Source: Bacteroidales bacterium
GTDB lineage: Bacteria; Bacteroidota; Bacteroidia; Bacteroidales; F082
Assembly: GCA_021647205.1 (NCBI GenBank)
Contig: JAKIVD010000008.1
Location: 1 to 64,000, forward strand
Direction of reading: 5' to 3'
DNA length: 64,000 nt
Shown here: piece after piece, positions 11,117 through 32,938 of the stretch
Numbering within the stretch: the stretch's first letter is position 1
How the letters are laid out: every line of letters begins with the position of its first letter
Made by a program: the position numbers and the translations under genes
Notes under the pieces: generated by a model
Database searches by the model: none
What the model was told of the DNA's origin: nothing
What the model saw: only the letters and a program-made list of their open reading frames with translations

Positions 11117-12814
11117 TTACAGTTCATTGATCTTTTGTTCAACCGTTTCCATAATCATATCGCGGCAGGCTTTTGCTTTTTGGGCGATTTCTTCCCCACG
11201 GCTTATCAGGTCATTGGTGAAAGCTTTGTCGGCAATGCCGGAAGCGTTGATTTTCACGTTCAGGAAAGCGCCTTCGACGGCTGTCAGCGCACACATAGCA
11301 CCCACACCGGCATCGGACACCGAATTGGGGTTGCCGTTTTCGGCCATGGCACGCATCACCTCTATGGAACGGTAAGCCGTGTCCATTACTTGAAAAGGTA
11401 TTTCCATGGCGTATTTTGAGGCGCTTTCGATGGCCTGTTTACGGGCTGTTTTTTCTTCGTCCGTCTTTTTAGGCAAAGCAAAGGCATCCATAATTTTATT
11501 AAAGGCATTCGTATCTTCATCTACCAGCCGCAACAATTCATCCTTGTATTTTTGACCTTTTGCCGCCCAATCGGAAAACTCCTCCCAACGCTCGTCCCAG
11601 CCCCGCTTGTGCGCCGAAAGGTTGGCCACCATCGTTCCCAGCGAAACACCGAGCACGCCGGCGTAAGCCGCGATGGAACCACCACCCGGTGCAGGGGACT
11701 CCGAAGCCGTTTCGTTGGCAAAACCGGTGATGGTCATGTCCACCAGTTTGTTTTTCCCTTCTTTCAGCAAATATTCGATGATCCTTTCCCCGGGCTTGAA
11801 AGTTTTCAAATCGTTGAGACCCATCGACTTGATGGCAATTTTGATCAATTCGTCATTGTCAACACCCACCGAACGCTGTTGTTTTCTGAGGAAATACCTT
11901 CCGGCTTCCAGCATCGCTTCCAGTGGGATGAGGCCCACGAGCTCCGAACCGGTAACACGTATTCCCCTGGCATCCGCTTTTTTGCAAACTTCGTCGAAGG
12001 CGATGTGAACGGGTGTGATGCTGATATTGGTCAGGTTCATCGAAATCTGGGCAATGCCGTATTCTTCAATAAACCAGCCGATTCCTTTCACTGCTTTAAG
12101 CGAGCCGGGGATCATGACGGGTTTGCCGTTTTCGTCTTTCACTATTTTTCCTGTGATGGGGTTACCCTCCCGTTTTGCCCGGCCACGTTCGCGCACATCA
12201 AATGCGATGGCATTGGCACGGCGGGTAGAAGTTGTGTTCAGGTTGACGTTGAAGGCCACCAGGAAATCGCGGGCACCAACGGCCGTTACCCCGCTACCGG
12301 CTACCCTTTCGGTAAATTCATTTGGCCCGAAATCGGGTTTCCATTCTTCAGAAGTAATTCGTTCCGGAAGCGCTTCGTATTCTCCTGAACGGCAGTTGGC
12401 GAGGTTTCTGCGCACTTCGGTGAAGGCCGCATTTTCGTAACAAAAGACAGGAATACCAAGTTCTTCGCCAATGCGTTTGGCCAGCTTGCGGGCGTATTCT
12501 ACGGTTTCTTCCATGCTGATGTTTGCAACCGGCACCAACGGACAAACATCGGTTGCACCAAAGCGGGGGTGTTCTCCTTTCTGGTGGCGCATGTCAATCA
12601 CTTCGGCAGCTTTTTTTACTGCTGCAAAGGCTGCATCAATAACCTCGTCGGGCGTACCGACAAAAGTAACTACTGTCCGGTTGGTGGCGGCACCCGGGTC
12701 AATATCCAGTAATTTAACGCCTTCTGCTTTTTCTATTTCATCGGTAATCTGCCTGATTACAGCCATATCGCGGCCTTCGCTGAAATTTGGGACACATTCT
12801 ATCAGTTGTCTCAT
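11117..12814 (-). CDS. ftcD: Bifunctional formimidoyltransferase-cyclodeaminase
   Basis: Transfers the formimino group from N-formiminoglutamate to tetrahydrofolate and then cyclodeaminates it to 5,10-methenyl-THF. This is the end of one histidine degradation route. The 565-residue protein begins MRQLIECVPNFSEGRD, the formiminotransferase N-subdomain; RHQKGEHPRFGATDVCPL carries the catalytic His region. The C-terminal third (GFANETASESPAPGGGS, then helices) is the cyclodeaminase. The in-frame extension to 12871 is rejected because the promoter lies there. hutI occurs at 55.1 kb; hutH and hutU are not seen. A severed 5' copy of this gene lies at 18.0-18.4 kb. Confidence 0.95.
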   Translation of the reverse strand: MRQLIECVPNFSEGRDMAVIRQITDEIEKAEGVKLLDIDPGAATNRTVVTFVGTPDEVIDAAFAAVKKAAEVIDMRHQKGEHPRFGATDVCPLVPVANISMEETVEYARKLAKRIGEELGIPVFCYENAAFTEVRRNLANCRSGEYEALPERITSEEWKPDFGPNEFTERVAGSGVTAVGARDFLVAFNVNLNTTSTRRANAIAFDVRERGRAKREGNPITGKIVKDENGKPVMIPGSLKAVKGIGWFIEEYGIAQISMNLTNISITPVHIAFDEVCKKADARGIRVTGSELVGLIPLEAMLEAGRYFLRKQQRSVGVDNDELIKIAIKSMGLNDLKTFKPGERIIEYLLKEGKNKLVDMTITGFANETASESPAPGGGSIAAYAGVLGVSLGTMVANLSAHKRGWDERWEEFSDWAAKGQKYKDELLRLVDEDTNAFNKIMDAFALPKKTDEEKTARKQAIESASKYAMEIPFQVMDTAYRSIEVMRAMAENGNPNSVSDAGVGAMCALTAVEGAFLNVKINASGIADKAFTNDLISRGEEIAQKAKACRDMIMETVEQKINEL

Positions 12815-12845
12815 TTCTGTTCTTTTTTTGTGAAAAACGGAGGTG

Positions 12846-12853
12846 CAAAAATA
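12846..12853 (-). promoter_or_regulatory. -7 element of ftcD
   Basis: The minus strand reads TATTTTTG 32 bp before the ftcD ATG. In the truncated copy at 18403-18410 the equivalent site is CATTTTTG, so the near-invariant first T is changed. No -33 TTTG is evident. Confidence 0.5.
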
Positions 12854-13107
12854 GGAAATATTAGGCTGCACATTAGGTTGACTAAAAGTTGAACATGAAT
12901 ATTAGTCATCTTGAAACATCAAAAAACGGACTGTCGAAAAATACAGTACAAAAACAGCACAAGATAAAATTAAAGCATTTTTTTCACTAATGGGAAAAAA
13001 AAGTATTTTTGATGCACATTATTCTTTTCAGAACAATAACATTTGTTGCGATAGAACCTTGAATTCAGTATAATAAAACAAGCATTCACAAACTAATTTT
13101 AAAGAAA

Positions 13108-18060: not shown

Positions 18061-18370
18061 TTTCCTCCATGCTGATGTTTGCTACGGGCACCAGCGGACA
18101 AACATCGGTAACGCCAAAGCGGGGGTGCTCCCCTTTCTGGTGGCGCATGTCGATGACTTCGGCGGCTTTTTTTACCGCAGCAAAGGCTGCTTCGATCACC
18201 TCGCCGGGCGTACCCACAAAAGTAACCACCGTCCGGTTGGTAGCTGCCCCCGGATCGACGTCCAGCAATTTAACGCCTTCTGCTTTTTCTATTTCATCGG
18301 TAATCTGCCTGATTACAGCCATGTCGCGGCCTTCGCTGAAATTGGGGACACATTCAATCAGTTGTCTCAT
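18041..18370 (-). pseudogene. Severed 5' copy of ftcD
   Basis: The first ~103 codons match the formiminotransferase N-terminus of the complete ftcD at 11117-12814. It begins MRQLIECVPNFSEGRD and runs to VPVANISMEE at 18061, where the duplicated segment interrupts it. I see only four amino-acid differences from the intact gene over this stretch. Homology also continues upstream through the leader to about 18420. The remaining ~460 codons are absent, so no enzyme can be made. Confidence 0.88.
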
Positions 18371-18446
18371 TTCTACTCTTTTTTTGGTGAAAAACGGAGG
18401 TGCAAAAATGGAAAATATTAAGTGTGCGGGCGGACGACTTTCCCAC

Positions 18447-18537: not shown

Positions 18538-19257
18538 TTATGCCAGTCTTCTTTTCCTGATGCGGTAAACTGTAAAAGCTGCAATTAAGAAAATGCCAAG
18601 GATGATGGCCCAGTTGGAGAGGGGGATATGCGGTGAGACATATAAACAAAAGGCTAGATCTGTCCCGATGTTGCTTCCATTTTGAAGAGCCAGCAAATCG
18701 CCGGTGGAGGACTCCTCCCATAAAAATGAACATGTGCCCTGTGGACTTCCTTGAATGGAAACCCAACCAGAAGACAAACCTGAAACTGCCGTGGGTAGCG
18801 TTGTCGAATACTTTAGGATTGGGTGACCAGCTAATGTATTTCCCGTTGCTTGTCCGGTGACTAAAGCATTAAAAATAGCAACCACTGTCCCGGGTGTTCC
18901 GGCATTATCCTGGTAGAAAATAATCTCGAAATTTTTTGGATTTTCGGTGCAAATGTCCCAATTCGACCCATTCCAAAACAGAGTAAGTCCCCACCAATCA
19001 ATTGAGGTGATGTCACCCGATATGCCTGTGAAATTGTCAGATACAATAAATGCCGACATAACATCAGATGTGAACGCACCAAAAGAAATTGGATCTTGTC
19101 CGAAAAAGGCATCAGGGGTACAATAAAATTCTGTACCAGGCGCGAGAGCTGGCATTTCTTGTCCGTTGCCCCGGATCATAGAAGGAACCTGAGCCTGACC
19201 GAAAACCAATAGTCCAAACAGACTAAGGGAGCTAAGAATAAATAATTTTTTCATCAT
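18538..19257 (-). CDS. Exported protein with IPTL-CTERM-like C-terminal sorting tail
   Basis: The 239-residue product has a signal peptide (MMKKLFILSSLSLFGLLVFGQAQ) and a beta-rich body containing SIDWWGLTLFWNGSNWD. It ends in a tripartite tail: the motif IPLSNWA, then a hydrophobic helix (IILGIFLIAAFTVY), then the basic cluster RIRKRRLA. This layout resembles IPTL-CTERM and PEP-CTERM anchors, which are processed by exosortase-like or rhombosortase-type enzymes in other phyla. No such enzyme gene is in the window. The body has no family I recognise. Confidence 0.7.
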   Translation of the reverse strand: MMKKLFILSSLSLFGLLVFGQAQVPSMIRGNGQEMPALAPGTEFYCTPDAFFGQDPISFGAFTSDVMSAFIVSDNFTGISGDITSIDWWGLTLFWNGSNWDICTENPKNFEIIFYQDNAGTPGTVVAIFNALVTGQATGNTLAGHPILKYSTTLPTAVSGLSSGWVSIQGSPQGTCSFLWEESSTGDLLALQNGSNIGTDLAFCLYVSPHIPLSNWAIILGIFLIAAFTVYRIRKRRLA

Positions 19258-19550: not shown

Positions 19551-20261
19551 TCAGAAACTGTACTTCTCACAAATGTTTTTCAGAAAAGAAAGTTTAAGTA
19601 TCCTTATAGATTTTCCTTCGGGTTTGATGACCCCGGTTTTTTCGAATTCGGCCAGCACCCTGATCACCGTTTCGTAAGTGGTGCCCGATAAATTGGCAAT
19701 GTCTTTCCGCGACGGGGTATAACTCAGCATCGTATTATCCTTTCCAGCAAAACCAAACGCATTTACAATGGTCAGCAGGGCAGAAGCCACCTTTTCAAGG
19801 GCAGACATTACTGCGTATAATTTCATCCGTGTTTCAGAAGCCTTCAATTGGTCGGCAAAAAACTTAACGAGAAAAAGTGCCATATCTGGATTGGCTTTTA
19901 CGGCTTTGTAAAAGACACCTATCGGGATAAAGGTTACTTGCGATGCTTCGAGGGTCACTGCGGTTACCGGATAAATCATGTTTCCGCCCAATCCGTGGTA
20001 ACCGAGTATTTGTTCCCTTTTGGCAAAACTGATGATCCTCTCCTTGCCGTTTCCGTACGAACTGACGACTTTAATTTTACCGGCATAAATTTCATAGATT
20101 CCCGTAACCGGTTCACCTTCCGTAAAGATTGTTGCGCCGACAGGGTAATCCGTCGTTGTTTTATTAAAGGTAATGATAGGCTTCCATTCATCAGAACAAT
20201 ACTTGTTGATGAAGCAACTAGAGTGTGTACAGGTTTCGCATTTTCTTTTCATAATAAACAT
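19551..20261 (-). CDS. Crp/Fnr family regulator with N-terminal four-Cys motif (A)
   Basis: The 236-residue protein has a cyclic-nucleotide-binding-type beta barrel (residues ~35-150, with FTEGEPVTGIYEIYAGKIKV). A C-terminal Crp winged helix follows (SRKDIANLSGTTYETVIRVL). Before the barrel are cysteines 8, 11, 16 and 22 in the spacing CX2CX4CX5C. FNR itself senses oxygen through N-terminal cysteines holding a 4Fe-4S cluster, so an Fe-S or NO-sensing role is plausible but unproven. It is the last gene of the nitrate respiration cluster, 59 bp after its paralogue. ATG at codon 4 is an alternative start. Confidence 0.88.
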   Translation of the reverse strand: MFIMKRKCETCTHSSCFINKYCSDEWKPIITFNKTTTDYPVGATIFTEGEPVTGIYEIYAGKIKVVSSYGNGKERIISFAKREQILGYHGLGGNMIYPVTAVTLEASQVTFIPIGVFYKAVKANPDMALFLVKFFADQLKASETRMKLYAVMSALEKVASALLTIVNAFGFAGKDNTMLSYTPSRKDIANLSGTTYETVIRVLAEFEKTGVIKPEGKSIRILKLSFLKNICEKYSF

Positions 20262-20320
20262 GAAGCTATAATCACTTTTTATGGATTCTGCTTTCGGCGA
20301 AATCCGTCAGACCAGGTTTG

Positions 20321-21004
20321 TTATCCCGCCAATGCCCTGAGGGCCGGTTCGTTTAAAGCAGCAATCTTATTTTTGCCCCAGTCAATTATCTTTGCGTCTG
20401 ACAAATACTTCAGGACCTTTGTCAGTTCAGTTTCCGAAGTCTCAGAAAAATTAGCAAGGCCGGACAGTTTCAAAGGCGAATCAATTATATTTTCGTGGCC
20501 ACCTACAAATCCAAAAGCATCCAAAACCATACAAAGTGATGCGGCGACTTTCTCTTTGTCGGATTTTAAAATATGCAGCCTGAATTTTTGTTCGGTACGC
20601 ATTAATTCATCGGCAAAGAACATCATCATAAAATAACTCAGGTCAACATTATGTCTCAGCAGCTTAAAAAACACCTCGTGCGGAATAAACGCCAGTTCAG
20701 AGCTCACAAGTGATTCAGCCGAAATCGGGTAAACCATTTCTTCACTTATCCCCCTGTGGCCAAGCACCTGTCCGTCGCCGGCCAACCTGATAATGGATTC
20801 TTCCGCTTTATCGTTTTTCATTGTGATTTTAAACTTTCCGGAACAAATCACATAAATTCCGGTTACCAGATCACCGGCAGAAAAAACTTTCGAACCGGCA
20901 GAAAGCTGTTTTCTGGTTTTAAATTCCTGGACAAATTCAAGCCAGGAGCTTAAACAATTAGCGTTGATATAACACTTCTTATTGCTGCAATCCCTACAAT
21001 CCAT
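20321..21004 (-). CDS. Crp/Fnr family regulator with N-terminal four-Cys motif (B)
   Basis: The 227-residue paralogue of the next gene has the same architecture: cysteines 3, 6, 11 and 17 (again CX2CX4CX5C), a sensory barrel (VFSAGDLVTGIYVICSGKFK) and a C-terminal helix-turn-helix. That HTH (GLANFSETSETELTKVLKYL) is less canonical than in copy A, so its DNA contacts may differ. It starts 30 bp after the NarK-type transporter stop. The pair could act as a two-sensor switch for the nar genes (inference). Confidence 0.87.
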   Translation of the reverse strand: MDCRDCSNKKCYINANCLSSWLEFVQEFKTRKQLSAGSKVFSAGDLVTGIYVICSGKFKITMKNDKAEESIIRLAGDGQVLGHRGISEEMVYPISAESLVSSELAFIPHEVFFKLLRHNVDLSYFMMMFFADELMRTEQKFRLHILKSDKEKVAASLCMVLDAFGFVGGHENIIDSPLKLSGLANFSETSETELTKVLKYLSDAKIIDWGKNKIAALNEPALRALAG

Positions 21005-21034: not shown

Positions 21035-22702
21035 TTACGGGTTCTTAATCTCCGCTTTCGGGCCAAGGTAGTACCACCAGTTTAAGACAGCACAGATTCC
21101 ATAAAAAATGGCAAAGCCATACAAAGCATATTCGGGTGTTGTCATTTTCATCTGTTCCCCAAGTACTTTTGGAATAATAAAAGCCCCGTATGCTGCTACT
21201 GCAGAAGTCCATCCGAGTACCGGCCCGGCCTGCTCTTTGTCAAAAACGATGGCAATGGTTCGGAATGTAGAGCCGTTGCCAATTCCGGTTGCCGTAAACA
21301 GAATAATAAGCAGAATGAAAAATGGCGTGAAATATTGTTGCGGTGTTTCGGAGTGGTATGCCAAAGACATGTAGTATGCAACGCCAAGAGCGGCAAAAAC
21401 CATGATAACTGAAACAATCTGGGTTATCAGTGCCCCACCGAACTTATCGGAAAGTTTACCCCCAACCGGGCGAATCAAGGCGCCGATAAAAGGCCCTGCC
21501 CAGGCAAACATAAACGCACTTGGCCCATCAGGGTTTGAAACACTATGAACCCAAACGCCATCAGCGTTGAGTGTATGAATATAGCCAAAAATAAACTTAA
21601 TGGACAGCGGAACAGCTGCAGAAAAGCCAATGAAAGAACCGAAGGTCATCGTATAAATAATTGTCATCACCCAGGTGTGCTTGTTGTTAAAAATGGCATA
21701 CTGACGTGTTAAGTTAGCTTTTATCTCACCTGGAGATGCCAGTTTTAAAAGATAGACCGTTGCCGCAATAATCAGCGGGAGTATCACCCATTTGTTCTTC
21801 AATACATTTTGCATAAAGGCACTGTCTCCGGCATCCAGTCCAATCGGGGGGGGCAGTATAAAATACAAGCCCACGCCTGCGGTCAGAAACCCGATGAACA
21901 GCAACCAGGAAATCCGCCCGAAAGAAACAAGCGGGCTTTTTAAATTAGGGGTGACGGTTTCTGTTTTGATGTTGTTCATGCCAAACCAGCCGAAAAGCGC
22001 AAGTGGAACCAGCCACAAAACCCAAACCCAGCCTGCGTTGGCAATCCAAGTTTCGGCCCCTGCCGGAATACGTTTAAAGATAGTGCCCGAAGCTTTGGTG
22101 AGTTCAAGCGCATCGCCGCTCAGCAGGCCAAGCAAAGGAACAGTCATGGCAAGCGGAATGAGTATTTGCATCGTGGTTACGCCGAAGTTGCCAAGGCCGG
22201 CATTCAGGCCCAGCGAAGTGCCCTGCACTTTTTTGGGGAAGAAAAAACTAATGTTGCTCATGGAGGAGGCAAAATTACCGCCACCAATTCCTGACAAAAA
22301 GGCCAGGAACTGAAACTGCCACAAAGGCGTTGATTGGTCCTGCAAAGCAAGGGCCGTACCGATGGAAGGAATCAGTAGCAGGGCGGTCGTGAAAAAGATG
22401 GTGTTTCTGCCACCTGCAAGCCTGATGAAGAAAGTGCTTGGAATTCTCAGCGTTGCCCCGGTCAGTCCCGCGATGGCCGCGAGCGTGAGCATCATGCTTT
22501 TGTTGGTTGCCGGGTCAGGATCGAAAACAAATCCCAAATTAATCATTTGAACACCAATGATTCCCCACATCAACCAGACCGCAAAGCCAACAAGCAAACT
22601 CGGAATAGAAATCCACAGGTTCCGGTTGGCAATTTTTTTGCCGGTCGAATTCCAGAAATTTTCATCTTCGATGTTCCAGCTACTAATATTAGTTTTTGAC
22701 AT
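21035..22702 (-). CDS. narK: NarK-type nitrate/nitrite transporter (E. coli NarK-like)
   Basis: The 555-residue MFS protein aligns by eye with E. coli NarK: an N-terminal FWNSTGKKIANRNLWISIP, then GGGNFASSMSNISFFFPK and the nitrate signature GLNAGLGNFGVTTMQ. Later it has GSFIGFSAAVPLSIKF and GPFIGALIRPVGGKLSDKFGG. Twelve helices are expected. It is about 90 residues longer than E. coli NarK, with extra sequence around 190-330 that includes additional hydrophobic stretches. It probably exchanges nitrate for nitrite across the inner membrane. It follows the second NarK-type gene by 77 bp. Confidence 0.9.
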   Translation of the reverse strand: MSKTNISSWNIEDENFWNSTGKKIANRNLWISIPSLLVGFAVWLMWGIIGVQMINLGFVFDPDPATNKSMMLTLAAIAGLTGATLRIPSTFFIRLAGGRNTIFFTTALLLIPSIGTALALQDQSTPLWQFQFLAFLSGIGGGNFASSMSNISFFFPKKVQGTSLGLNAGLGNFGVTTMQILIPLAMTVPLLGLLSGDALELTKASGTIFKRIPAGAETWIANAGWVWVLWLVPLALFGWFGMNNIKTETVTPNLKSPLVSFGRISWLLFIGFLTAGVGLYFILPPPIGLDAGDSAFMQNVLKNKWVILPLIIAATVYLLKLASPGEIKANLTRQYAIFNNKHTWVMTIIYTMTFGSFIGFSAAVPLSIKFIFGYIHTLNADGVWVHSVSNPDGPSAFMFAWAGPFIGALIRPVGGKLSDKFGGALITQIVSVIMVFAALGVAYYMSLAYHSETPQQYFTPFFILLIILFTATGIGNGSTFRTIAIVFDKEQAGPVLGWTSAVAAYGAFIIPKVLGEQMKMTTPEYALYGFAIFYGICAVLNWWYYLGPKAEIKNP

Positions 22703-22779: not shown

Positions 22780-24318
22780 TCAGAACTCATCAACAAACGC
22801 ATCTTTAGGCTCCTTCAGCATAAAGAAGCAATAAATCAGGCTGACAAATGCACCGCCCGAAAGCATAAATAAAAAGGATTTATCATCCATAAAATTGTAT
22901 AAGAACAAATAAGTAACAGCGCCAACATTACCAAAAGCGCCGGCCATTCCCGCAATCCGCCCCGTCATTTCCTTTTTAATGGAAGGTATCATGGCGAAGG
23001 TTGCCCCTTCGGCCCCCTGCACAAAGAAAGAGGCAAACATGGTAATAAATATGGAAACAGCCAGCCAGGTCATTGTATTGAATTGCGGGAGAAGTGTAAC
23101 CTGGCCATCGCTGCCGACAGGGCCATATTTTGCAATTACAGCCATCAGGAAGAAACCTACCGTAATACCTGTCATGTAGAAAAGCATCGTTTTTTTACGG
23201 CTGCCCATTTTATCAGAAAGCAGGCCGCCCAGCGGACGGGCCACGAGGTTCATAAAAGCAAAAGAGCCTGCAACCGCCCCGGCCATTGTCAGTGTCATCA
23301 CCTGCGAACCGTCATCGTAAACCAAATTACTGAATACTTCATAAAAAAACATGGGAAGCATGGAAACGATGGCCAGTTCGGCGCCAAAATTTGCAAAATA
23401 GGTTGTGTTGAGCGCCCCGACACTGCCAAACGGAAACTTCTCTTCTTCGGGCACTCCGGCTTTCAGGCGCGGCAGGTTGGCCCTGAGTATCCGCACCACA
23501 TCAACGATGTACACAGCGGCAAGTATAAACCATGTAAGCCAGACATTTGCCCAGCTGATTAATGGTACGCCATTGATCAGTTGTTTGTGCAAAACAAAAG
23601 CCACAAGCCCGAGCGCACCATACAGCGGCAATTCCCAAACGACATACTGCCCCAAATCAACATAAGAGGAAACGGGCATTGCACCACCTTTGCTCTTCTT
23701 GGCAGAAGGCGCGGTTCCTTCCGGGTAATCTTTAACGGAAAAGAAATAAAAAACACCGTACAATGCTGTAATAATACTCGTTATTGCTAAGGACCACCGC
23801 CAGTCGCCACCCAAAATATTTACGGCAACAAAAGGGACCATTGCCGCCGCTGCCGCCGACCCGAAATTTCCCCATCCGGCGTAAAACCCCTCGGCACGCC
23901 CAATGTATTTCGGTGTAAACCAGTTGGCTGTCATTTTAATGCCGATTACAAAACCGGCGCCAATGGCGCCAAGGGCCAGCCTCGACAAAACCAGTTGGGT
24001 TAAGTCGTCGCCAAAGGCGAAGGTTAAACCCGGAATAAGCATAATGACCATCAGGCCGGCAAATATCCTTCGCGGGCCGTACTTATCTATTAGCCCGCCC
24101 ACTATTATCCGCGCAGGAATCGTCAACGCAACATTCGTAACCAACAGGGCTTTGACGTTTGACTTTGAAAGCCAGTCGAACTGCTCGATCATTTTTGAAA
24201 GAACCCCGGCCATATTAAACCATACGACAAAAGTTAAAAAGAAGGCAATCCAGGTCAGGTGCAAAGTCCTGATGCTCGGATTACTAAAATCTAATAATGA
24301 AGGTGCGTTTTGCTTCAT
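22780..24318 (-). CDS. narK: NarK1/NasA-type nitrate transporter
   Basis: The 512-residue MFS protein belongs to the other NarK subgroup. It has LTWIAFFLTFVVWFNMAG at the start, GLIDKYGPRRIF, NWFTPKYIGRAEGFYAGWGN with the AGWGNFG nitrate signature, and NLVARPLGGLLSDKMGSRKK. In Paracoccus-like systems a NarK1 type (proton/nitrate symport) is fused to a NarK2 type (nitrate/nitrite antiport). Here the same pair is encoded as two adjacent genes. It likely supplies nitrate before nitrite accumulates. It lies 39 bp after narI. Confidence 0.9.
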   Translation of the reverse strand: MKQNAPSLLDFSNPSIRTLHLTWIAFFLTFVVWFNMAGVLSKMIEQFDWLSKSNVKALLVTNVALTIPARIIVGGLIDKYGPRRIFAGLMVIMLIPGLTFAFGDDLTQLVLSRLALGAIGAGFVIGIKMTANWFTPKYIGRAEGFYAGWGNFGSAAAAAMVPFVAVNILGGDWRWSLAITSIITALYGVFYFFSVKDYPEGTAPSAKKSKGGAMPVSSYVDLGQYVVWELPLYGALGLVAFVLHKQLINGVPLISWANVWLTWFILAAVYIVDVVRILRANLPRLKAGVPEEEKFPFGSVGALNTTYFANFGAELAIVSMLPMFFYEVFSNLVYDDGSQVMTLTMAGAVAGSFAFMNLVARPLGGLLSDKMGSRKKTMLFYMTGITVGFFLMAVIAKYGPVGSDGQVTLLPQFNTMTWLAVSIFITMFASFFVQGAEGATFAMIPSIKKEMTGRIAGMAGAFGNVGAVTYLFLYNFMDDKSFLFMLSGGAFVSLIYCFFMLKEPKDAFVDEF

Positions 24319-24357: not shown

Positions 24358-25080
24358 CTAATTATTCTTTGAGCGGACCCCGTTCACTAATTTACGGGAA
24401 GTCCTTATTTTCTTGCGGTCCCAGTTCCAGATAACAAGCTGGTAGCTCCGCCACAGGTAGGCAAACGGATAAACCAGGAAGTGGATAAAACGCGTAAAGG
24501 GAATCATCCCGATAAAAACAAAGGCCGAGACAATGTGGATTTGAACAGCCAACGGCATTTGGGCCAGGACGGCAACGTCAGGGTTGAAAGTGAACAACGA
24601 TTTTAGATAAGGGGTTAGCGAGGAAGCGAACCAGGCAGATCCCCAGCGGACAAAAAAGGCAACCCACATGCCCGAGATAATTTGTGTTAACAGCATGACG
24701 TAAACGAACACGTCCATTTTGGAAGTTACCGCCCACAGCCTCCTGTTCTTGAAACGCCGCTGTATCAGCATCAGCAGGCCAAACAAAGCCGAGAAGGCAA
24801 AACCCAGCGCGGAGGCTTCGAGAATGATCAGCCGCAAAGGCACACTGTTCCACAGCAGTACGGAGCCTGGGAAAAGGAATGCAGTGGCATGGCCAAAGAA
24901 CAAAAAGATGACCCCCCAGTGGAAAGGACGGCTTCCGTAAAAAAGTTCCTTTCCTTCGAGAAATTGCGAAGACAACGATGATACCTTAAAACCGAGCCGG
25001 TAGTACCTGAAAATGGACCCGACCAGCAAAACCGTCAGTGCTGCATAGGGTAAACCGATAAAAAAGAAGTTGTTGAACAT
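24358..25080 (-). CDS. narI: Respiratory nitrate reductase, cytochrome b subunit NarI
   Basis: Quinol-oxidising membrane subunit that takes electrons at the periplasmic side and passes them through two b haems to NarH. The 240-residue protein has five predicted transmembrane helices. The four haem-ligand histidines expected from E. coli NarI are present as H54 and H64 (FHWGVIFLFFGHA) and H182 and H200 (VQIHIVSAF, RFIHFLVYP). It starts 3 bp after narJ. Confidence 0.95.
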   Translation of the reverse strand: MFNNFFFIGLPYAALTVLLVGSIFRYYRLGFKVSSLSSQFLEGKELFYGSRPFHWGVIFLFFGHATAFLFPGSVLLWNSVPLRLIILEASALGFAFSALFGLLMLIQRRFKNRRLWAVTSKMDVFVYVMLLTQIISGMWVAFFVRWGSAWFASSLTPYLKSLFTFNPDVAVLAQMPLAVQIHIVSAFVFIGMIPFTRFIHFLVYPFAYLWRSYQLVIWNWDRKKIRTSRKLVNGVRSKNN

Positions 25081-25082
25081 AT

Positions 25083-25724
25083 CTAAAAACTTTTACGTTT
25101 GTTACAGTGTGTATCGCAAATGGCAGACTTTGGTGAGGGCATGACGAATTCGTTGTCGCCGGTAAATGCCTGCTCGGGTACCGCATATTCAGTCAGGCCG
25201 TCGCCTTTGAAATCGCGCTGAAGGAGTTCCAACAGGACTTCAAGTATTTCTTTGTAGTAATTGTTGATGTTCTTAAATTTCGTCAGCATAAAGCGCACGG
25301 CCGGGGTGGTGATGATGAACCCCAGTTCTTCGGCAAAATCAGGGTTCGTTGTTTTCGAAAGCAGCGTAAGCACATTGGGCAGGTGGTCGCCCAATTCGCT
25401 CCCGCAATCAATACCCGCAATTTTGTGCTCATTTTGAAGGTTCACCAGCAGTTGGGCCCTTTTGTAATCTTCGCCGAACAATACATAGCCCAGGTCGAGA
25501 TAACAAACGGCTTGTACGTCGAAGGTCTTCATGAAGTATTCCTGTTGTTGGTGAACCGTTAATTTGTTGTGGTTTTCAAGAAGTTCCTGCATTTTCCCGG
25601 CTTTGCCGGGAAGTTCTTCCACCACCATTTGCAGGAATTTTTTGCTGTACTCCGAAAAGTGCCCGTCAGGATACCTGAAAACATCTGCCAGAATTTTATA
25701 ATGATTTAATTTTTTCATGATCAT
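25083..25724 (-). CDS. narJ: Nitrate reductase molybdenum cofactor assembly chaperone NarJ
   Basis: Cytoplasmic TorD-fold chaperone that helps insert the molybdopterin cofactor into NarG and holds NarGH until membrane docking. The 213-residue protein is all-helical, with the family pattern YPDGHFSEYSKKFLQMV, VCYLDLGYVLFGEDYKRAQLL and DHLPNVLTLL. ATG at codon 3 (25718) is an equally possible start. Spacing to narH is 8 bp. Confidence 0.92.
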   Translation of the reverse strand: MIMKKLNHYKILADVFRYPDGHFSEYSKKFLQMVVEELPGKAGKMQELLENHNKLTVHQQQEYFMKTFDVQAVCYLDLGYVLFGEDYKRAQLLVNLQNEHKIAGIDCGSELGDHLPNVLTLLSKTTNPDFAEELGFIITTPAVRFMLTKFKNINNYYKEILEVLLELLQRDFKGDGLTEYAVPEQAFTGDNEFVMPSPKSAICDTHCNKRKSF

Positions 25725-25732
25725 TTATCTGT

Positions 25733-27223
25733 TTACATTCCTCTCTCCGGAGGCTCTTTAAAACCAAAACCCGTATTCCCTTTCACATCGGCCGTACTTT
25801 CCAGCATTTCCATGGCCTCTTCGCGGTGGGCCGCCGGAATCACAAAACGATCATCGAACAAGGGCAGCGAAGTCAGCCTGAAAATAGCATCCGCCGTTTC
25901 CTTGTCCATCTTCACTTCACCCATGGGGTCGCTCACTTCTTTCTCAGGCAGGTCGCCCACGGTTTCATTTCTGCGGTGCAGACGGACTGCCATCAGTTTC
26001 TTCAAAACTGTTTCGATGGTTTTTTCATTTCCGGCACTGAAAAGGTTGGCGAGGTATTTCATCGGCAAGCGCGATTTTTCGATGGCGCCCCAGAACGATT
26101 CGCTGGTGGTTTCGTAAGTGCCGTTTTCCACAAAAGCCATGGTGGGCAGCAGGGGTGGCACATAAAATAAATTGGGCAGTGTCCTGAACTCGGGGTGCAA
26201 CGGCAAAGCCAGCCCCCACTTTTTGACGAATTTGTACACCGGTGATTTTTGCGCCGAAGTAAGTGTGGACTCGGGAATGCCATTGGCCCGGGCCATTTTG
26301 ATGACCATCGGATCGTTGGGGTCCAGGTAGATATCCAGCTGTTTTTGAACCAGATCGCTCTCGTTGCAGGAAGCAACGGCCTCAATTTTGTCCGCATCGT
26401 ACAACAGCACACCGAGGTACCTGATGCGTCCCACGCAGGAATGCATGCACGCCGGGGCCTGACCCGATTCAACACGCGGGTAACAGAGCAGGCATTTTTC
26501 GGATTTTCCGGTGTTCCAATTGTAATAACTCTTTTTGTACGGACAGGCCGTTACACACATTCTCCATGCACGGCATTTTTTCTGGTTGATGAGTACGATG
26601 CCGTCTTCACCCCTCTTGTAAATGGCACCCGAAGGACAGGCAGCCACGCAGGCCGGATTCAGGCAGTGGTTGCAAATGCGCGGCAAGTAGTGGAAACTCA
26701 TTCTTTCCAGTTGGAACATTGCTTCCTGCTCAGCAGCAGAAAGATTGCGCGAATTGACATCTTTCCGAGCATATTCCTGGCTTCCGCCCAGATCGTCGTC
26801 CCAGTTGGGCCCCGCTTTTGGCGTGATAGGCTCTCCCGTAATCAGTGAAACAGGTCGGGCAACCGGTTGGTCATCGCCTTCCTCCGCCTCGAACAAATGT
26901 TCGTACTGGTAGGTCCACGGCTCGTAATAATCGTCAAGCACGGGCATGTTCGGATTGTGGAACATATTTTTCAGTCCCTTGAATTTGCCGGCTCCTTTCA
27001 GCTTGATCGAACCCCCTTTTTTCTCCCATCCGCCTTTGTAAATATCCTGGTCTTCCCATTTGCTCGGGTAGCCGGTTCCGGGTTTGGTTTCCACATTGTT
27101 CCACCACATGTATTCGGCACCTTTCCGGTCGGTCCAGATATTTTTGCAGGCGATGGAACAGGTATGGCATCCGATACATTTATCAAGATGAAATACCATT
27201 GCAATTTGTGATCTTATGTCCAT
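25733..27223 (-). CDS. narH: Respiratory nitrate reductase, iron-sulfur subunit NarH
   Basis: Carries electrons from the NarI haems to NarG through three 4Fe-4S clusters and one 3Fe-4S cluster. The 496-residue protein has the first cysteine group C16-X2-C-X2-C-X3-C (DKCIGCHTCSIACKN). Further groups are CNHCLNPACVAACPSG, KKCRAWRMCVTACPYKK (tryptophan in place of a cysteine, the mark of the 3Fe-4S site) and KCLLCYPRVESGQAPACMHS. Length and order match the NarH family. Confidence 0.96.
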   Translation of the reverse strand: MDIRSQIAMVFHLDKCIGCHTCSIACKNIWTDRKGAEYMWWNNVETKPGTGYPSKWEDQDIYKGGWEKKGGSIKLKGAGKFKGLKNMFHNPNMPVLDDYYEPWTYQYEHLFEAEEGDDQPVARPVSLITGEPITPKAGPNWDDDLGGSQEYARKDVNSRNLSAAEQEAMFQLERMSFHYLPRICNHCLNPACVAACPSGAIYKRGEDGIVLINQKKCRAWRMCVTACPYKKSYYNWNTGKSEKCLLCYPRVESGQAPACMHSCVGRIRYLGVLLYDADKIEAVASCNESDLVQKQLDIYLDPNDPMVIKMARANGIPESTLTSAQKSPVYKFVKKWGLALPLHPEFRTLPNLFYVPPLLPTMAFVENGTYETTSESFWGAIEKSRLPMKYLANLFSAGNEKTIETVLKKLMAVRLHRRNETVGDLPEKEVSDPMGEVKMDKETADAIFRLTSLPLFDDRFVIPAAHREEAMEMLESTADVKGNTGFGFKEPPERGM

Positions 27224-27237
27224 GGTTTAGCGTTGTT

Positions 27238-30200
27238 TTAAAATTCGACTTTGTCCATTTTCTGAATCAGGACGTGGGTATCGCGGTTCACCCCGACGGG
27301 TCCCCAATAATTAAAATGATAAGTAAACTGACCGTAACCGCCCACCATCAGGTTGGGCTTGAGGTGAATCCGGGTAAAGCTGTTGTGGCCACCGGCCCGC
27401 CTGTTGCCCCTCACCTGAGATTTGGGAATGGAATACGTACGCTCAGGCGAGTGATAAACAATGCAGATACCTTTCGGGATACGGGCACTGACACAAGCGC
27501 GTGTACAATACACCCCGTTGTCGTTGAACACCTCTACCCAATCGTTGTCTTTGATGCCCAGTTCGGCAGCATCCTCTTCACTCAGCCAGCATGGTTCCAT
27601 GCCACGCGAAAGCGTCAGCATGCGCAGGGTGTCGCCGTAAGTGGAGTGAATATGCCACTTTCCGTGGGGCGTGAGCACGTTCAGCATTTTGGCCTTTCCG
27701 GTGGCTACCGAAGTCCTCAACTCTCCGTAAACCTCCGGTTTTGGTGAAGGCTTGTAGGTTGGCAGATGCTCGCCAAATTTGATGTAGCCTTCATGGTCAA
27801 GGTAGAAATGCTGCCGTCCCGTGAGGGTACGCCAGGGCACCAGTCGCTCTACATTGTAGGTGTAGGCCGAATAAGCCCTGCCATCAGTGAGCAGTCCCGA
27901 CCAGACGGGGGAATTCAGGTAACGGTGGGGCTTGGTTTGCAGGTCTTTGTAATTCATCCTGACGTTTTTGTTGCCTTCCGAAAGGTCGCAAAGTGTCAGC
28001 CCGGTTTTCTTCTCAGCAACTTTATAAGCCCTGTGGGCCAGCTCGCCGTTGGTCAAACTTGATAAATGCAGTACGGCATTTGCAGCTTCCTCATCTTCGT
28101 AGATTGACGGATATTCTTTGCCATCCAGCTTGCTGACATGGTTCCTGTCGTCGAGCATTTGCTCATAAAAGTCGGTGCACTGATAGCTGTTGCCATGCGC
28201 GCCGAGGCCGTTTTTGATATTGGGCCCCAGCCTGATGAATTTATCGTAAACTTTGGTGTAATCCCTTTCGACCACCACAATGTTGTGCATGGTTTTTCCG
28301 GGAATGGGTTCGCACTCCCCTTTGCTCCAGTCCTTGATTTCTGATTGTGCCACTTCGCCGGCACTGTCATGGGCAATGGGCACATTCACGATGTCTTTAA
28401 CAGGTTTCGCGAAATGTGTTTTGGCCAGTTCGCTGGTGGCCTTGGCAATTTCCCTGAAGATTACCCAGTCGCTTTTCGATTCCCAGACCGGGTCGATGGC
28501 TGCCGACAAGGGATGGATGAAGGAGTGCATGTCCGTACTGTTCAGGTCGGTTTTTTCGTACCACGAAGCTGCCGGCAGCACAATATCGGAATACAATGCC
28601 GAGGTGTCCATCCTGAAGTTGAGGTTGACAATCAAATCCATTTTACCTTTCGGGCTTTCGCTGCGCCACTTTACATCTTTCACAAACTGGTCGGCAACTT
28701 CATCAGCTACCGAATTATGGTGTGTGCCGAGGTAGTGGTTCATAAAAAACTCATGGCCCTTGGCACTCGACATCAGGGCATTTCCACGCCAGATGTACCA
28801 CACCCGCGGGAAACTTATTTCTTCATCAGGCTCAACCACGGCATGAAGCAGTTCTTTGCTTTTCAGTTTCTCTACAACATATTTTTTGATGTCCTCGTCA
28901 GAGCTTGCCCCTGCTTTTTCGGCATCTTTTACAATCTCCAGGTTGTTCTTGTTGTATTGGGGATAAAAGGGCATCCAGCCATTGCGGACAGCTTTGGCCA
29001 CCATATCTGCCGAGTGCATGCCCGAGAAATCGTTTTTGGGAACGGTGTTGTAATCGGCCTGGTTGCCGTCGTAACGCCACTGGTCGGAATTGATGTAGTG
29101 CCAGATGGGTGTTTGCTGCAAGCGTGGTGGCGCCTGCCAGTCTTTTCCCGACATGATGGCACCCCACGAATCGGATGGTGCCAGCTTTTCCTGACCAACA
29201 TAGTGGTTCATTCCGCCACCATTCACACCGATACAACCTGTCAGCATCAATGCCATGGTTCCGGCACGGTAAATCAGGTTGTTGTGGTACCAGTGGTTGA
29301 TTCCTGCACCTATAATAATACTGCACTTTCCATTGGTTGTTTCAGCAGTCCTGCTCCATTCGCGTGCGAACTGCATAACCGTTTCAGGTCCGATACCTGT
29401 AAATATCTCCTGCCATGCCGGAGTGTAAGCCGCATCTTTTTCTTCGTAAGAAGCCGGGTAGTCGCCGCCCAGTCCGCGGTCGATGCCGTATTGTGCCATC
29501 ATCAAATCGTAAACAGTGGTAACCTTTAGCGTTCCGTCAGCCGTTTTGATGTGTTTTACAGGAACTCCCCTTTGGGCAAACTTATTCTGTCCGTATTCGA
29601 CAAATTCAACTTGCAGTACTTCATCGTTATTGTCAAGTAACGTAAGTACCGGGTCGTAGGGTTTTCCGGTTTCGGCGTCTTCAAACTTCATGTTCCAGTT
29701 GCCGTCTTTACCATCCCACCTGTGCCCTGAGCTTCCGCCCGGACAAACCAGGTCGCCGCTTTCTGCATCAATGTTCAGGAATTTCCAGTCACCCTTTTCA
29801 ATGTCTTTATATTTTTTGACTTTGCCGGCCCTCAGCATCCGTCCGGGGACGAGTTTTCCGTCTTCTTCGTTTACTTCCACCAGGAAAGGGCTGTCGGTGT
29901 AGCGCTTGGTGTAATCGATAAAATAAGGTGTCTGTTTCTCATAATGGTACTCCTTTAATATCACATGGACGACAGCCATCCAGAAGGCGCCGTCCTGACC
30001 TGCATGTACCGGAACCCACTTATCGGCATATTTGGCCACCATATTGAAGTCGGGTGAAAACACAACCGTCTTGGTTCCGTTGTGGCGTGATTCTGAGAAG
30101 AAGTGCACATCAGGCGTACGGGTCATCCCCAGGTTGGCGCCCATGCAGGCGATGAATTTTGAGTTGTACCAATCGGCACTTTCGGCCACATCGGTCTGTT

Positions 30201-30849
30201 CCCCCCATATTTCGGGAAAAGAGTTCGGCAGGTCGCAATACCAATCGTAGAAACTGAGGTTAACTCCGCCCATCAGCTGCAGAAATCGCGAACCTGCCGC
30301 ATAACTCAACATCGACATGGCCGGAATCGGTGAGAACCCAACCAGCCTGTCAGGACCATATTTTTTAGTTGTGTAAATATTCGATGCAGCGATAATCTCT
30401 TTGGCATCGTCCCACGACACCCTTCGGAAGCCACCTTTTCCCCTGGCCCGCTGGTACCTGGCCCTGACTTCGGGATTGGTCTGGATGTTCTCCCAGGCTT
30501 TCAGGGCATCGCCGGTTTTGGCTTTTTCTTCGTTGAACGCATCGATCAGGGCTCCCCTTATCATGGGATATTTTACACGTATCGGGCTATACAAATACCA
30601 TGAAAAAGAAATACCGCGCTGGCATCCCCTCGGCTCGTAAGGCGGCAGGGATTTTTCAAGCAAAGGATAATCGAGTGCCTGGGTTTCCCAAACAACAATC
30701 CCGTCTTTCACATGGATATTCCAGCTACAGCCGCCGGTACAGTTCACACCATGCGTGCTTCTGACAACCTTATCGTGCTGCCACCTGTTTCTGTAAAACT
30801 CTTCCCATTGGCGGGTTTTGGGAGAGATTAAATCTTTTATCCAACTCAT
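27238..30849 (-). CDS. narG: Respiratory nitrate reductase, molybdopterin subunit NarG
   Basis: Catalytic subunit that reduces nitrate to nitrite in the cytoplasm. The 1203-residue protein begins at [11 protein letters not shown] and has no Tat signal. It shows H33, C37, C41 and C76, matching the FS0 cluster ligands of E. coli NarG (H49, C53, C57, C92). The molybdenum ligand region [10 protein letters not shown] supplies the Asp. [17 protein letters not shown], the molybdopterin-contacting WYHNNLIYR region and a C-terminal molydopterin dinucleotide binding domain follow. It is therefore a membrane-anchored, cytoplasm-facing Nar and not periplasmic Nap. Confidence 0.97.
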
Positions 30850-30865
30850 AAATGTATCTGTTAAG

Positions 30866-31708
30866 TTAGTTAATTACATTTGAAGCCCTGCTGAGGAGGT
30901 CGTGGTTAACAGCAAGCTTTTTACGATTAAAATAAATGATGATCGAACTCATTATTATCACCATAAAAACTACCAAACCGAGAAAGACAAAACTCAGGCT
31001 GAAATCGGTGGGTACCTGGTAAATTCTTTGTTCGCTCACCGATTTTAAATAGGCCGTGAGGTTAATGACCTCATCTTCGGTTAAAGGATGGTTAACATAG
31101 GCTGCCCCCATCACCGGAAAGGGTGGGTTTTTCACAATTCCGGCTATTCCGGCACTGCCCATCAGCTCGTAGGTCTGACTCAAATCTTTGGCCAGGGTGC
31201 CGCTGCTGAAAACCCGTTCGTCCCTGACTTTGTGGCAGGAAGTACAGGCTGCGCCCCCGTTTGTCAATCGCTCGTTGCCTGAAAAGAGTGCCGCTCCCTG
31301 ACTGACATTGTCGGCGCCCGTTTCAATTAAAATATCAACTGTAGCTGTGGCTGCCTGCCCTTCGGCTCCTGTACCCGAACTGATGTAGTTGAGCACATTG
31401 ATAATCTGTGCATCGGTAAAATTATTGTCGGGCATCAGTATCCGGTTGTATTCTTCAAAGATGGCCAGCGCAGCCGCATCACCACTTTTAATTTTCGTTG
31501 TTGAGGATTTAATGAAAGATACAAGCCATTCCTGACTTTGTTTATCCGCCACATTCTTTAAGTCGGGGCCGACAAGCCGCCCCTTGCCAATGGTATGACA
31601 TGCGGCACAGGTTTTTTTAAAGATGTCCTCCCCTTCGCCGGCAAAAATGATGGTGAACGTAAAGATTCCGATAAATAAGAGTAAAGCCTTCATTCGATAA
31701 ATATTCAT
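30866..31708 (-). CDS. Membrane-anchored di-haem cytochrome c of the nar operon
   Basis: The 280-residue protein has a hydrophobic N-terminal signal, a first cytochrome c domain with CAACH (C34, C37, H38) and a second domain with CTSCH (C155, C158, H159). One C-terminal transmembrane helix (~236-260, [20 protein letters not shown]) is followed by a basic tail. The globular parts therefore face the periplasm. [10 protein letters not shown] and [18 protein letters not shown] provide the likely distal Met ligands. It is the first gene of the operon, 16 bp before narG. Thermus has a cytochrome (NarC) in an equivalent spot that links Nar to electron transfer. A start at codon 6 (31693) is also possible. 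Confidence 0.9.
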
Positions 31709-31887
31709 GAACAGACGATTAATTTTTCGATGTAAAAATATTATAAATATGTTTCAGGTCATACTTTTTTATGCACCATATCATAATTTAGACTCTTTCT
31801 AAATACACGAGTTTACGCTTCCTGCTGAGTTTAAAGCTTTTTAGCATGTTTTGCTCTTTGATAGTGAAATTAGCAAATAACCTGAAC

Positions 31888-31901
31888 ATGATTAATATCA
31901 C
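31888..31901. promoter_or_regulatory. FNR-box-like palindrome upstream of the nar operon
   Basis: ATGATTAATATCAC holds TGAT-N4-ATCA, the eight central positions of the FNR/ANR consensus TTGAT-N4-ATCAA; the outermost pair differs. It lies about 180-195 bp before the cytochrome gene. With two Crp/Fnr proteins in the operon it is a reasonable operator candidate, but such an 8-bp match can occur by chance in AT-rich sequence. Confidence 0.35.
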
Positions 31902-32006
31902 ATATTTTAAAAACCAATCTTGTTGTGAAAAGTGTTTCGGGCGGGCTGTACTTTGCAAATTCTCCAAGTTCGGATACTTGAAACAGGTAGTGGAGCTGGG
32001 TGAGGT

Positions 32007-32242: not shown

Positions 32243-32938
32243 TTACAATGCCACTGCTTTGGGGTACAAAATGTTGTTCTCGAGGTGGACATGCACATGC
32301 AGGTCATCTTCAAATTGTTCCAGAAGCTGGAATGTTACACGGTAGGTGTTGCACGCATCTTCAGGAAGATGGTAGCCAGCAGTCATCCGGTTGATCTCGT
32401 CCATGGCACCACCGGCAAAATCGTGCTCGCCCGCCATGCGGTCAATTTCAGATTTTATCAATGCCCTCAGCTTTTTGGAAGGCTGGTCGAGGGCCTCTTT
32501 TATCGCCGGAAACAAAACTTCTTCTTCCTTTTTCAGGTGCTGCATCAGTTCCTCGTTAATCTTTGCAAACAAAGTGGCCATCTCTACAAGTTCGGGATGG
32601 TGCTCCCCATGTACGTCAGCAATTTTCCGGGTATAAAAAAGCAGCTCAGGTAATGATTTCAGCACATATTTATGGTGGGTGTTGACAATATAATCAGAAA
32701 GGAAATCCAATTCCCAGTCTTTGTAATTTTGTAGAGGGCTCAGCGGCGAGAGTTCCAAAGCTTTAATTTTCCCAACCAGCACAGATTGTTCAATTCCCTT
32801 TTCCCGGCAGGCTTCTTCAATGCTCTGTTTGCCACCGCAGCAAAAGTCGATGCCGCTTTCTTTGAATATTGATGCCGTCCTGAAATCGTTGGTCACTATC
32901 TCGCCAACGGTCAATTCATTATGTTTTACATTTTTCAT
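32243..32938 (-). CDS. ric: Ric (YtfE/ScdA) di-iron iron-sulfur cluster repair protein
   Basis: Repairs Fe-S clusters damaged by nitric oxide or oxidants in the cytoplasm. The 231-residue protein has the N-terminal ScdA_N domain with the conserved TASIFKESGIDFCCGGKQS (CC pair). A hemerythrin-like four-helix bundle follows, with di-iron ligands in HHKYV, HGEHHPEL, EEEVLFPAI, AGEHDFAGGAMDEI and HVHLENNILYPKA. Its place upstream of nar fits protection against nitrite-derived NO. Confidence 0.95.
   Translation of the reverse strand: MKNVKHNELTVGEIVTNDFRTASIFKESGIDFCCGGKQSIEEACREKGIEQSVLVGKIKALELSPLSPLQNYKDWELDFLSDYIVNTHHKYVLKSLPELLFYTRKIADVHGEHHPELVEMATLFAKINEELMQHLKKEEEVLFPAIKEALDQPSKKLRALIKSEIDRMAGEHDFAGGAMDEINRMTAGYHLPEDACNTYRVTFQLLEQFEDDLHVHVHLENNILYPKAVAL

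Follow-up and report, generated by a model that had tools for sequence, protein, structure and literature searches.

What do two neighboring Crp/Fnr-family regulators at the end of a nitrate reductase (nar) operon sense, and do both of them read DNA? The question is raised by positions 19,551 to 21,004 of a 64,000-nucleotide stretch of a Bacteroidales bacterium (assembly GCA_021647205.1, contig JAKIVD010000008.1, positions 1 to 64,000; hereafter the window), where two genes, which we call CrpA and CrpB, encode proteins with four N-terminal cysteines ahead of a cyclic nucleotide (cNMP)-type barrel. We tentatively favor a reading, close to an even call and on the doubtful side of it, in which both twins would be FNR-like cluster sensors with a relocated ligand, CrpB activating the nar operon and CrpA having a modulating role.

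Two paralogs share a four-cysteine N-terminus

The two genes and their cysteine stretches lie as follows.

19551..20252, minus strand: CrpB, Crp/Fnr-family regulator of 233 residues (open reading frame, translation)
20196..20240, minus strand: CrpB four-cysteine stretch, C5 to C19 (read from the sequence)
20321..21004, minus strand: CrpA, paralog of CrpB, 227 residues (open reading frame)
20954..20998, minus strand: CrpA four-cysteine stretch, C3 to C17 (read from the sequence)

The pattern CX2CX4CX5C precedes the barrel at C3/C6/C11/C17 in CrpA and C5/C8/C13/C19 in CrpB and is followed by x3-W in both (C-x2-C-x4-C-x5-C-x3-W). Read directly in both open reading frames (ORFs), this bears out the identical spacing that a first-pass annotation had reported, as well as its departure from classical FNR, which has CX2CX5C in place of CX2CX4C followed by X5C. 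The CrpB start common to its orthologs is the ATG at 20252, and an earlier start at 20261 would add three residues. Both proteins fall within the Crp/Fnr superfamily by their cNMP-type barrel and Crp helix-turn-helix (HTH) domain: CrpB matches PF00027, PF13545, and PF00325 above the Pfam cut-offs, while CrpA clears the cut-off for PF00027 but not that for PF13545 (23.4 of 27 bits).

The two proteins are tandem paralogs of common origin, for which BLASTP gives a gap-free alignment of 205 residues at 34% identity and 56% positives (E 2e-47). The earlier claim that only the motif is conserved between them thus fails, as an alignment of 28 twin sequences has 23 invariant columns, spread between the N-terminus and the dimer helix region with many in the barrel, and the barrel segment LGHRG-x5-M-x-YP-x-x-A is among the best-conserved parts. 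A fifth invariant cysteine, Cys54 in the barrel (window 20843-20845, ICSGK), is found in 17/17 CrpA and is lacking in CrpB.

Among 173 genomes of the window's family, 19 carry CrpB (E 1e-50). A sample of 393 genomes from the order added G126 and G416, which belong to two other families, and no further copy was among the matches listed in a sample of 395 genomes of the phylum. Seventeen of the 21 CrpB genomes, spanning three families, also carry CrpA, which is absent from G003, G030, G034, and G044; when the gaps in these four were translated and inspected by eye, no CrpA remnant was recognized. C1 to C3 are kept in all 38 twins, and C4, and with it the complete set, in 17/17 CrpA and 19/21 CrpB, the exceptions being Val in G002 and Thr in G416. 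The absence of the motif from orthologs, which the first-pass annotation had named as grounds against its own proposal, was therefore not observed. This conservation, together with the restriction of the pattern to CrpA and CrpB among the 143 stop-to-stop ORFs of at least 100 residues in the window, rules out a chance occurrence. Convergence in unrelated regulators is likewise ruled out, since the pair is paralogous and groups with other carriers in a single clade even when the motif is left out of the tree.

The fourth cysteine and the FNR barrel position

When a profile of 56 sequences was compared with solved structures, the CxxC of the motif aligned with the Cys pair of Aliivibrio fischeri FNR and a barrel Cys column aligned with the Cys of FNR's VCEIP; C3 fell one residue off because the spacing is X4 instead of X5. 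None of the 38 twins (0/17 CrpA, 0/21 CrpB) has a Cys at this barrel position, which is occupied by Thr107 in CrpB and by Ala, once Ser, in CrpA. The barrel Cys is present in 64 of 67 relatives (8/8 and 15/15 in two assimilatory groups and 41/44 of the distant ones) and, among the eight remaining rows of the alignment, in L149, L150, L160, L146, and L095, with L147, L148, and L098 lacking it. Over all 113 rows, 10 hold both C4 and the barrel Cys, 38 hold C4 only, 59 the barrel Cys only, and six neither.

The 113 non-redundant rows, which are the best matches to the twins and not a random sample of Bacteroidota Crp proteins, were placed in a tree after the N-terminal stretch and the barrel position had been removed. 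In this quick search, in which support was by the approximate likelihood ratio test SH-aLRT only and several rows sit on long branches, CrpA forms one clade (17 rows, SH-aLRT 96) and CrpB another (21 rows, 87), both inside a 42-row clade (97). The sister group L153-L159 and L161 carries CX4CX2CX2C-x3-W together with the barrel Cys, the last N-terminal Cys being Ser in L158. The states of these rows fit a stepwise transfer of the fourth ligand, which may have moved from the barrel to the N-terminus. Homology lends support to the shared Fe-S or nitric oxide (NO) sensor proposed at first pass, as a metal sensor that is probably of the Fe-S kind, through the conserved cysteines and the alignment of CxxC with the FNR pair; the barrel Cys of FNR is replaced in every twin.

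Divergence of the DNA-binding domains

CrpB has a canonical recognition helix, TTYETVIRVL. Pairwise comparison of orthologs from 16 genomes gave recognition helix identities of 0.85 for CrpB versus 0.42 for CrpA, with 0.68 versus 0.35 over the HTH domain and 0.70 versus 0.60 over linker and barrel. Taking as reference the FNR residues Glu209, Ser212, and Arg213, CrpB has Y, E, and R in 16/16 sequences and Ile (15) or Val (1) where FNR has Ser, while in CrpA the FNR-type Glu is found in 1/16 and the Arg at the 213 position in 8/16. The recognition helices of the twins do differ, as the first-pass annotation had it, but that of CrpA varies among its own orthologs and is not conserved for another target.

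Ratios of nonsynonymous to synonymous substitution (dN/dS) were taken from five close pairs with unsaturated dS, two further pairs being saturated in CrpA. HTH dN/dS was 0.05, 0.27, 0.41, 0.59, and 0.42 for CrpA and 0.27, 0.17, 0.06, 0.04, and 0.14 for CrpB in the same pairs, and thus higher in CrpA in four of the five, with the limit that a single genus, represented by the same four genomes, supplies four of the five pairs. The N-terminus and barrel of CrpA gave 0.04-0.15 (six pairs). These contrasts in identity and dN/dS suggest that in CrpA the DNA reader drifts while the sensor and dimer helix stay, purifying selection not being gone, and CrpA appears to be losing its DNA-reading ability. 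The proposal that the twins have different DNA targets is thus unsupported, if less firmly so than the claim on conservation, as CrpA lacks the recognition-helix Glu in 15/16 sequences, its helix is variable, and its HTH dN/dS is mostly the higher. The CrpA data fit a modulator better than a second specificity, the latter being a possible though poorer fit.

The nar operon and its candidate operators

The regulators stand at the end of a run in the order cytochrome c-narG-narH-narJ-narI-narK-narK-CrpA-CrpB, and the nar operon context given at first pass is upheld, as they come after narGHJI and two narK genes.

21035..22702, minus strand: narK-type nitrate/nitrite transporter 2 (best NCBIfam hits TIGR00886 and NF011608, below cut-offs; synteny)
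22780..24318, minus strand: narK-type nitrate/nitrite transporter 1 (TIGR00886 below cut-off; synteny)
24358..25080, minus strand: narI, nitrate reductase gamma subunit (TIGR00351 above cut-off)
25083..25724, minus strand: narJ-like chaperone (TIGR00684 below cut-off; operon position)
25733..27223, minus strand: narH, beta subunit (TIGR01660 above cut-off)
27238..30849, minus strand: narG, alpha subunit (TIGR01580 above cut-off)
30866..31708, minus strand: cytochrome c gene, first in the conserved operon (PF00034; synteny)

The order is identical in 21/21 genomes as far as the stretches reach, except that in G016 one different NarK-like transporter and a short ORF replace the two narK genes; in G051 each regulator stands at the end of a contig of its own.

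Fifteen regions upstream of the operon were compared, 14 of them from the set of 21 CrpB genomes and one from the related G203, with start codons assigned mechanically and unsure in L074, L081, and L144. A site TATGAYN4RTCATA with at most one mismatch is present in 15/15 of them, against a mean of 0.18 of 15 and a maximum of 2 in 60 first-order Markov shuffled sets, numbers that are descriptive because the consensus was derived from the tested sequences and the genomes are related. Two sites with at most two mismatches, at -185 to -198 and -55 to -80, occur in 12/15 regions; in the exceptions a site lies at -119 (L081), the distal one alone is present (L144), or the sites lie at -219 and -56 (L148). 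The pair is also present in L068, L074, L075, and L078, from genomes without CrpA. A TAnnTTT box, a candidate Bacteroidota -7 element, begins -30 to -34 from the ATG in 13/15 regions. The candidate elements in the window are the following.

31733..31740, minus strand: candidate Bacteroidota -7 box TATTTTTA (TAnnTTT box)
31748..31763, minus strand: candidate operator TATGACCTGAAACATA, one mismatch, at -55, in the same place in L068
31770..31785, minus strand: candidate proximal operator TATGATATGGTGCATA, two mismatches, near the common position of about -78
31887..31902, minus strand: candidate distal operator TGTGATATTAATCATG, two mismatches, near the common position of about -196

Upstream of nar, a search for the classical FNR box found no perfect site and one site with a single mismatch, in L078. 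Abutting the middle (proximal) TATG..CATA site of the window is a second palindrome, ATTTAGA-N5-TCTAAAT (31786-31804), which is possibly the site of another regulator; a related ATTYAGA-N6-ATAAAT lies at -94 to -97 in L069, L070, L075, L076, and L078, two of them without CrpA.

Perfect sites were also counted over whole genomes against a reversed-pattern control and show no more than a modest excess: nine CrpB genomes gave 29 to 23, a second set (seven CrpB genomes together with G203 and G232) 30 to 20, and 14 family genomes without CrpB 33 to 16. The first two sets together yield 59 sites, and among 35 of them six stand before cytochrome c-nar, five before a molybdoenzyme gene, and four before a gene for a porin-like outer-membrane protein, the last named by eye and the molybdoenzyme being a PhsA-like twin-arginine translocation (TAT) protein known from a partial sequence whose best NCBIfam hit is below cut-off. 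Upstream of the molybdoenzyme a site with at most one mismatch is found in 13/18 genomes; in G007, which lacks CrpB, only 132 bases of this region are covered. One such PhsA-like molybdopterin oxidoreductase gene (L211/L265, G000:C12, about 147600-149100) has a perfect TATGAYN4RTCATA site at -167, and its orthologs in G001, G003, G030, and G126 have perfect sites too.

The TATGA site as an operator exclusive to CrpB is ruled out in this strong form, since it occurs in genomes without CrpB, and the motif is probably shared with another Crp. A candidate for the latter is encoded on C12 of the window's genome next to sulfide:quinone reductase; it has a helix with E and IR, and the intergenic region between the two genes holds one of the genome's two perfect sites. 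Relatives with a CrpB-like helix (L147, L148, and L082/L098) have sites upstream of their own genes. In 17 other loci that were scanned, no site was found just upstream of the regulator, and five had one site elsewhere.

Alternative readings of the twins

In the mechanism that we favor, CrpA and CrpB would belong to a clade of Bacteroidota Crp/Fnr regulators linked with nitrate metabolism, and each twin would hold a metal cluster, [4Fe-4S] being the likeliest, on cysteines that correspond in placement to the N-terminal ones of FNR. The fourth ligand would have moved from the sensory barrel to the new N-terminal Cys (C-x5-C-x3-W), which would bring all four ligands within 15 residues. CrpB would be the DNA-binding activator, its cluster-loaded dimer binding TATGA-N6-TCATA upstream of cytochrome c-nar and thereby driving its own gene at the operon end, and the protein would be switched when O2, or NO formed from nitrite, reacts with the cluster. 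CrpA would keep the sensor, barrel, and dimer helix and would have lost the conserved contacts of the recognition helix; it would probably tune CrpB through heterodimers or competition for the signal. The scheme builds on observed sequence conservation, the predicted Crp/Fnr fold, synteny, the promoter palindromes, and the unequal conservation of the HTH domains, and in it we infer the metal and its identity, the signal, cotranscription, the protein that binds the palindrome, and the heterodimers.

Besides the derivation of the operator consensus and the narrow sampling of the dN/dS pairs noted above, a number of findings weigh against this scheme. Ten rows hold both C4 and the barrel Cys, three proteins (the CrpB of G002 and G416, and L098) have neither and are left with three cysteines, and a statistical correlation between gaining C4 and losing the barrel Cys is unsupported, there being too few independent events. 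In one of the five pairs the HTH domain of CrpA is more constrained than that of CrpB. The 33-to-16 excess in genomes without CrpB means that the surplus of sites is not tied to CrpB; two such genomes, G018 and G052, carry a one-mismatch site upstream of the molybdoenzyme, and one of 19 loci from genomes of this kind, in G018, adjoins the same porin-like gene. Few of the contexts include RIC genes for iron-sulfur cluster repair. A Cys4 zinc site would be indistinguishable here from a cluster site, cAMP-type structures match the CrpB model as well as FNR does or better, and some relatives lie beside assimilatory-type nitrate genes, where an O2-labile switch is not expected.

These last points serve the explanation that survives best beside the cluster sensor, one that we consider somewhat unlikely: the four cysteines, as zinc ligands or in disulfides, would do no more than brace the N-terminus, while the barrel reads nitrate, nitrite, or another small ligand in the manner of CRP or NtcA. 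A compact Cys4 within 15 residues, accompanied by a Trp, suits such a site, and the strong conservation of the barrel segment LGHRG-x5-M-x-YP-x-x-A would suit a ligand-reading barrel. AlphaFold2 predicted a Crp/Fnr fold for CrpB with a mean predicted local distance difference test (pLDDT) score of 94.1 (93.3 for CrpA), and an ordered N-terminus, with the first 30 residues modeled confidently (block pLDDT 85-96 in CrpB, 80-94 in CrpA). The best structural match of the CrpB model is Porphyromonas gingivalis 2gau (Z 26.9), followed by GlxR and Mycobacterium tuberculosis CRP at Z 24-25 and the holo-FNR entries at Z 23-24, so that 2gau and the cAMP-type proteins lie at Z 24-27. Alignments with the holo-FNR entries begin at residue 2-4, and those with most FNR entries in apo, degraded, or [2Fe-2S] form begin no earlier than 24-31. 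Since alignments with cAMP-type entries, too, begin at residues 1-7, the fold search is ruled out as proof of an FNR-type N-terminus, and the predicted fold match is to Crp/Fnr proteins without singling out FNR.

The neighbors of the relatives bear on the same alternative. Those with C-x2-C-x4-C or CX4CX2CX2C adjoin narGHJI-like genes in L146 and L148 and narK in L149 and L150, while NasA/NasC-like genes (below NCBIfam cut-offs) accompanied by nirB, cobA, narK, or moaA are found at L152, L154, L157, and L159-L163, except that the L157 stretch has nirB, cobA, and narK and no NasA. NasA-like genes are also present in the 3.6-kb loci L126, L127, L132-L134, and L136, and nosZ is found at L153. None of the query genes was found within 20 kb at L155, L156, L158, and L082, nor in the short stretches available at L147, L151, L129-L131, and L137. 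Association with assimilatory-type genes suggests that, in at least part of the clade, the signal is NO, nitrite, or nitrate rather than O2. Opposing a zinc or disulfide site are the homology of C1 and C2 with the FNR Cys pair, the barrel Cys at the FNR position in 64/67 relatives of three groups, and some RIC genes nearby.

That each twin binds DNA on its own, the two sharing one kind of sensor but differing in their targets as proposed at first pass, seems distinctly improbable to us. In its favor, the CrpA HTH has dN/dS below 1 in all five unsaturated pairs, the Arg at the 213 position is kept in half of the 16 CrpA, and a second palindrome abuts the proximal site. On the other side, the recognition helix of CrpA is unconserved among orthologs and its PF13545 match is below cut-off, the TATGA pair persists in the CrpA-less L068, L074, L075, and L078, and the second palindrome is likewise seen by eye in these four, with a pattern match in L075 and L078. 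It is highly improbable that CrpA is a decaying duplicate without function, as its absence without recognized remnant from 4/21 genomes and its variable helix might suggest, given that it is kept in 17 genomes of three families with all four cysteines and the invariant Cys54, that its N-terminus and barrel are held at low dN/dS, and that its model is confidently predicted.

The cluster-sensing activator with its modulator can be carried further, to a speculation that we think improbable, in which a nitrate- or NO-responsive Bacteroidota family underwent stepwise ligand migration (from three N-terminal cysteines plus the barrel one, to four plus the barrel one, to four N-terminal ones only), yielding an autonomous N-terminal module that signals without barrel contact and a DNA-blind duplicate whose heterodimers set the threshold for switching nitrate respiration. 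The geometry of the FNR cluster is usually discussed with the barrel Cys as a fixed ligand. If the ligand moved and intermediates persist, these proteins would form a natural ligand-swap series for how the cluster state reaches the dimer interface, and if CrpA is DNA-blind the pair would offer a simple natural example of tuning through heterodimers in a family whose members are described as homodimeric.

Comparison with known regulators

Among known systems, the FNR proteins of Escherichia coli and A. fischeri share with the twins the Crp/Fnr fold, N-terminal cysteines before the barrel with a homologous CxxC, the FNR-type Glu and Arg (not the Ser) in CrpB's recognition helix, and TGA-core palindromes upstream of anaerobic respiration genes. 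Unlike FNR, the twins have a C3 spacing of X4 instead of X5, Thr or Ala/Ser in place of the barrel Cys that serves as fourth ligand, and a new fourth N-terminal Cys, so they show neither the CX2CX5C spacing nor the barrel ligand; with the NCBIfam Fnr model NF008365, whose cut-off is 228 bits, CrpB scores 77.9 and CrpA 45.8. The candidate half-site here is TATGA, in contrast to the TTGAT half-site of the FNR box as given in PMC4505428, and the regulator is present as two tandem copies within the putative target operon.

The spacing CX2CX4C of C1 to C3 equals that of Bacillus Fnr, in which, according to PMC3520743, a C-terminal motif of this form ligates [4Fe-4S] with an Asp as the fourth ligand (Cys 227, 230, and 235 in B. 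subtilis and 219, 222, and 227 in B. cereus; x3 is printed once there for x4). In the twins, by contrast, the motif is N-terminal with a fourth Cys, and the Cys census of the twins revealed no conserved C-terminal CX2CX4C. DnrS and DnrT of the Thermus nitrate respiration element are likewise two co-encoded regulators beside nar, one of them of the CRP family (PMC5748679); unlike the twins, DnrT has no such cysteines, and its partner DnrS belongs to the GAF/BTAD proteins and is not a Crp paralog. DNR, NnrR, and HcpR are also Crp/Fnr proteins tied to nitrogen oxides, but the HcpR and DNR branches lack an FNR-type cysteine motif by the description in PMC1274295, while four N-terminal cysteines are conserved in the twins. 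Some Crp homologs of Flavobacteriales and Saprospiraceae have been grouped loosely with the carbon regulator MalR (PMC8510549). The literature searched, mostly without subscription papers, yielded no description of this motif in Bacteroidota and none of a regulator of nar genes in that phylum.

Other features around the operon

Directly upstream of the nar operon, at 32243-32938, lies a gene for a RIC/YtfE iron-sulfur cluster repair di-iron protein (TIGR03652 above cut-off), and RIC genes near nar were also seen in L071, L077, and the related L148. A short way past the regulator pair on its other side, positions 18061-18420 are a 360-bp copy, 90% identical to 12505-12863, of the 5' portion of a formiminotransferase gene (11117-12871, named by eye). 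Between this copy and CrpB, the ORF at 18538-19257 encodes a secreted-looking product that ends in a C-terminal hydrophobic stretch followed by the basic residues IRKRRLA, an arrangement that we presume to resemble a sorting signal.

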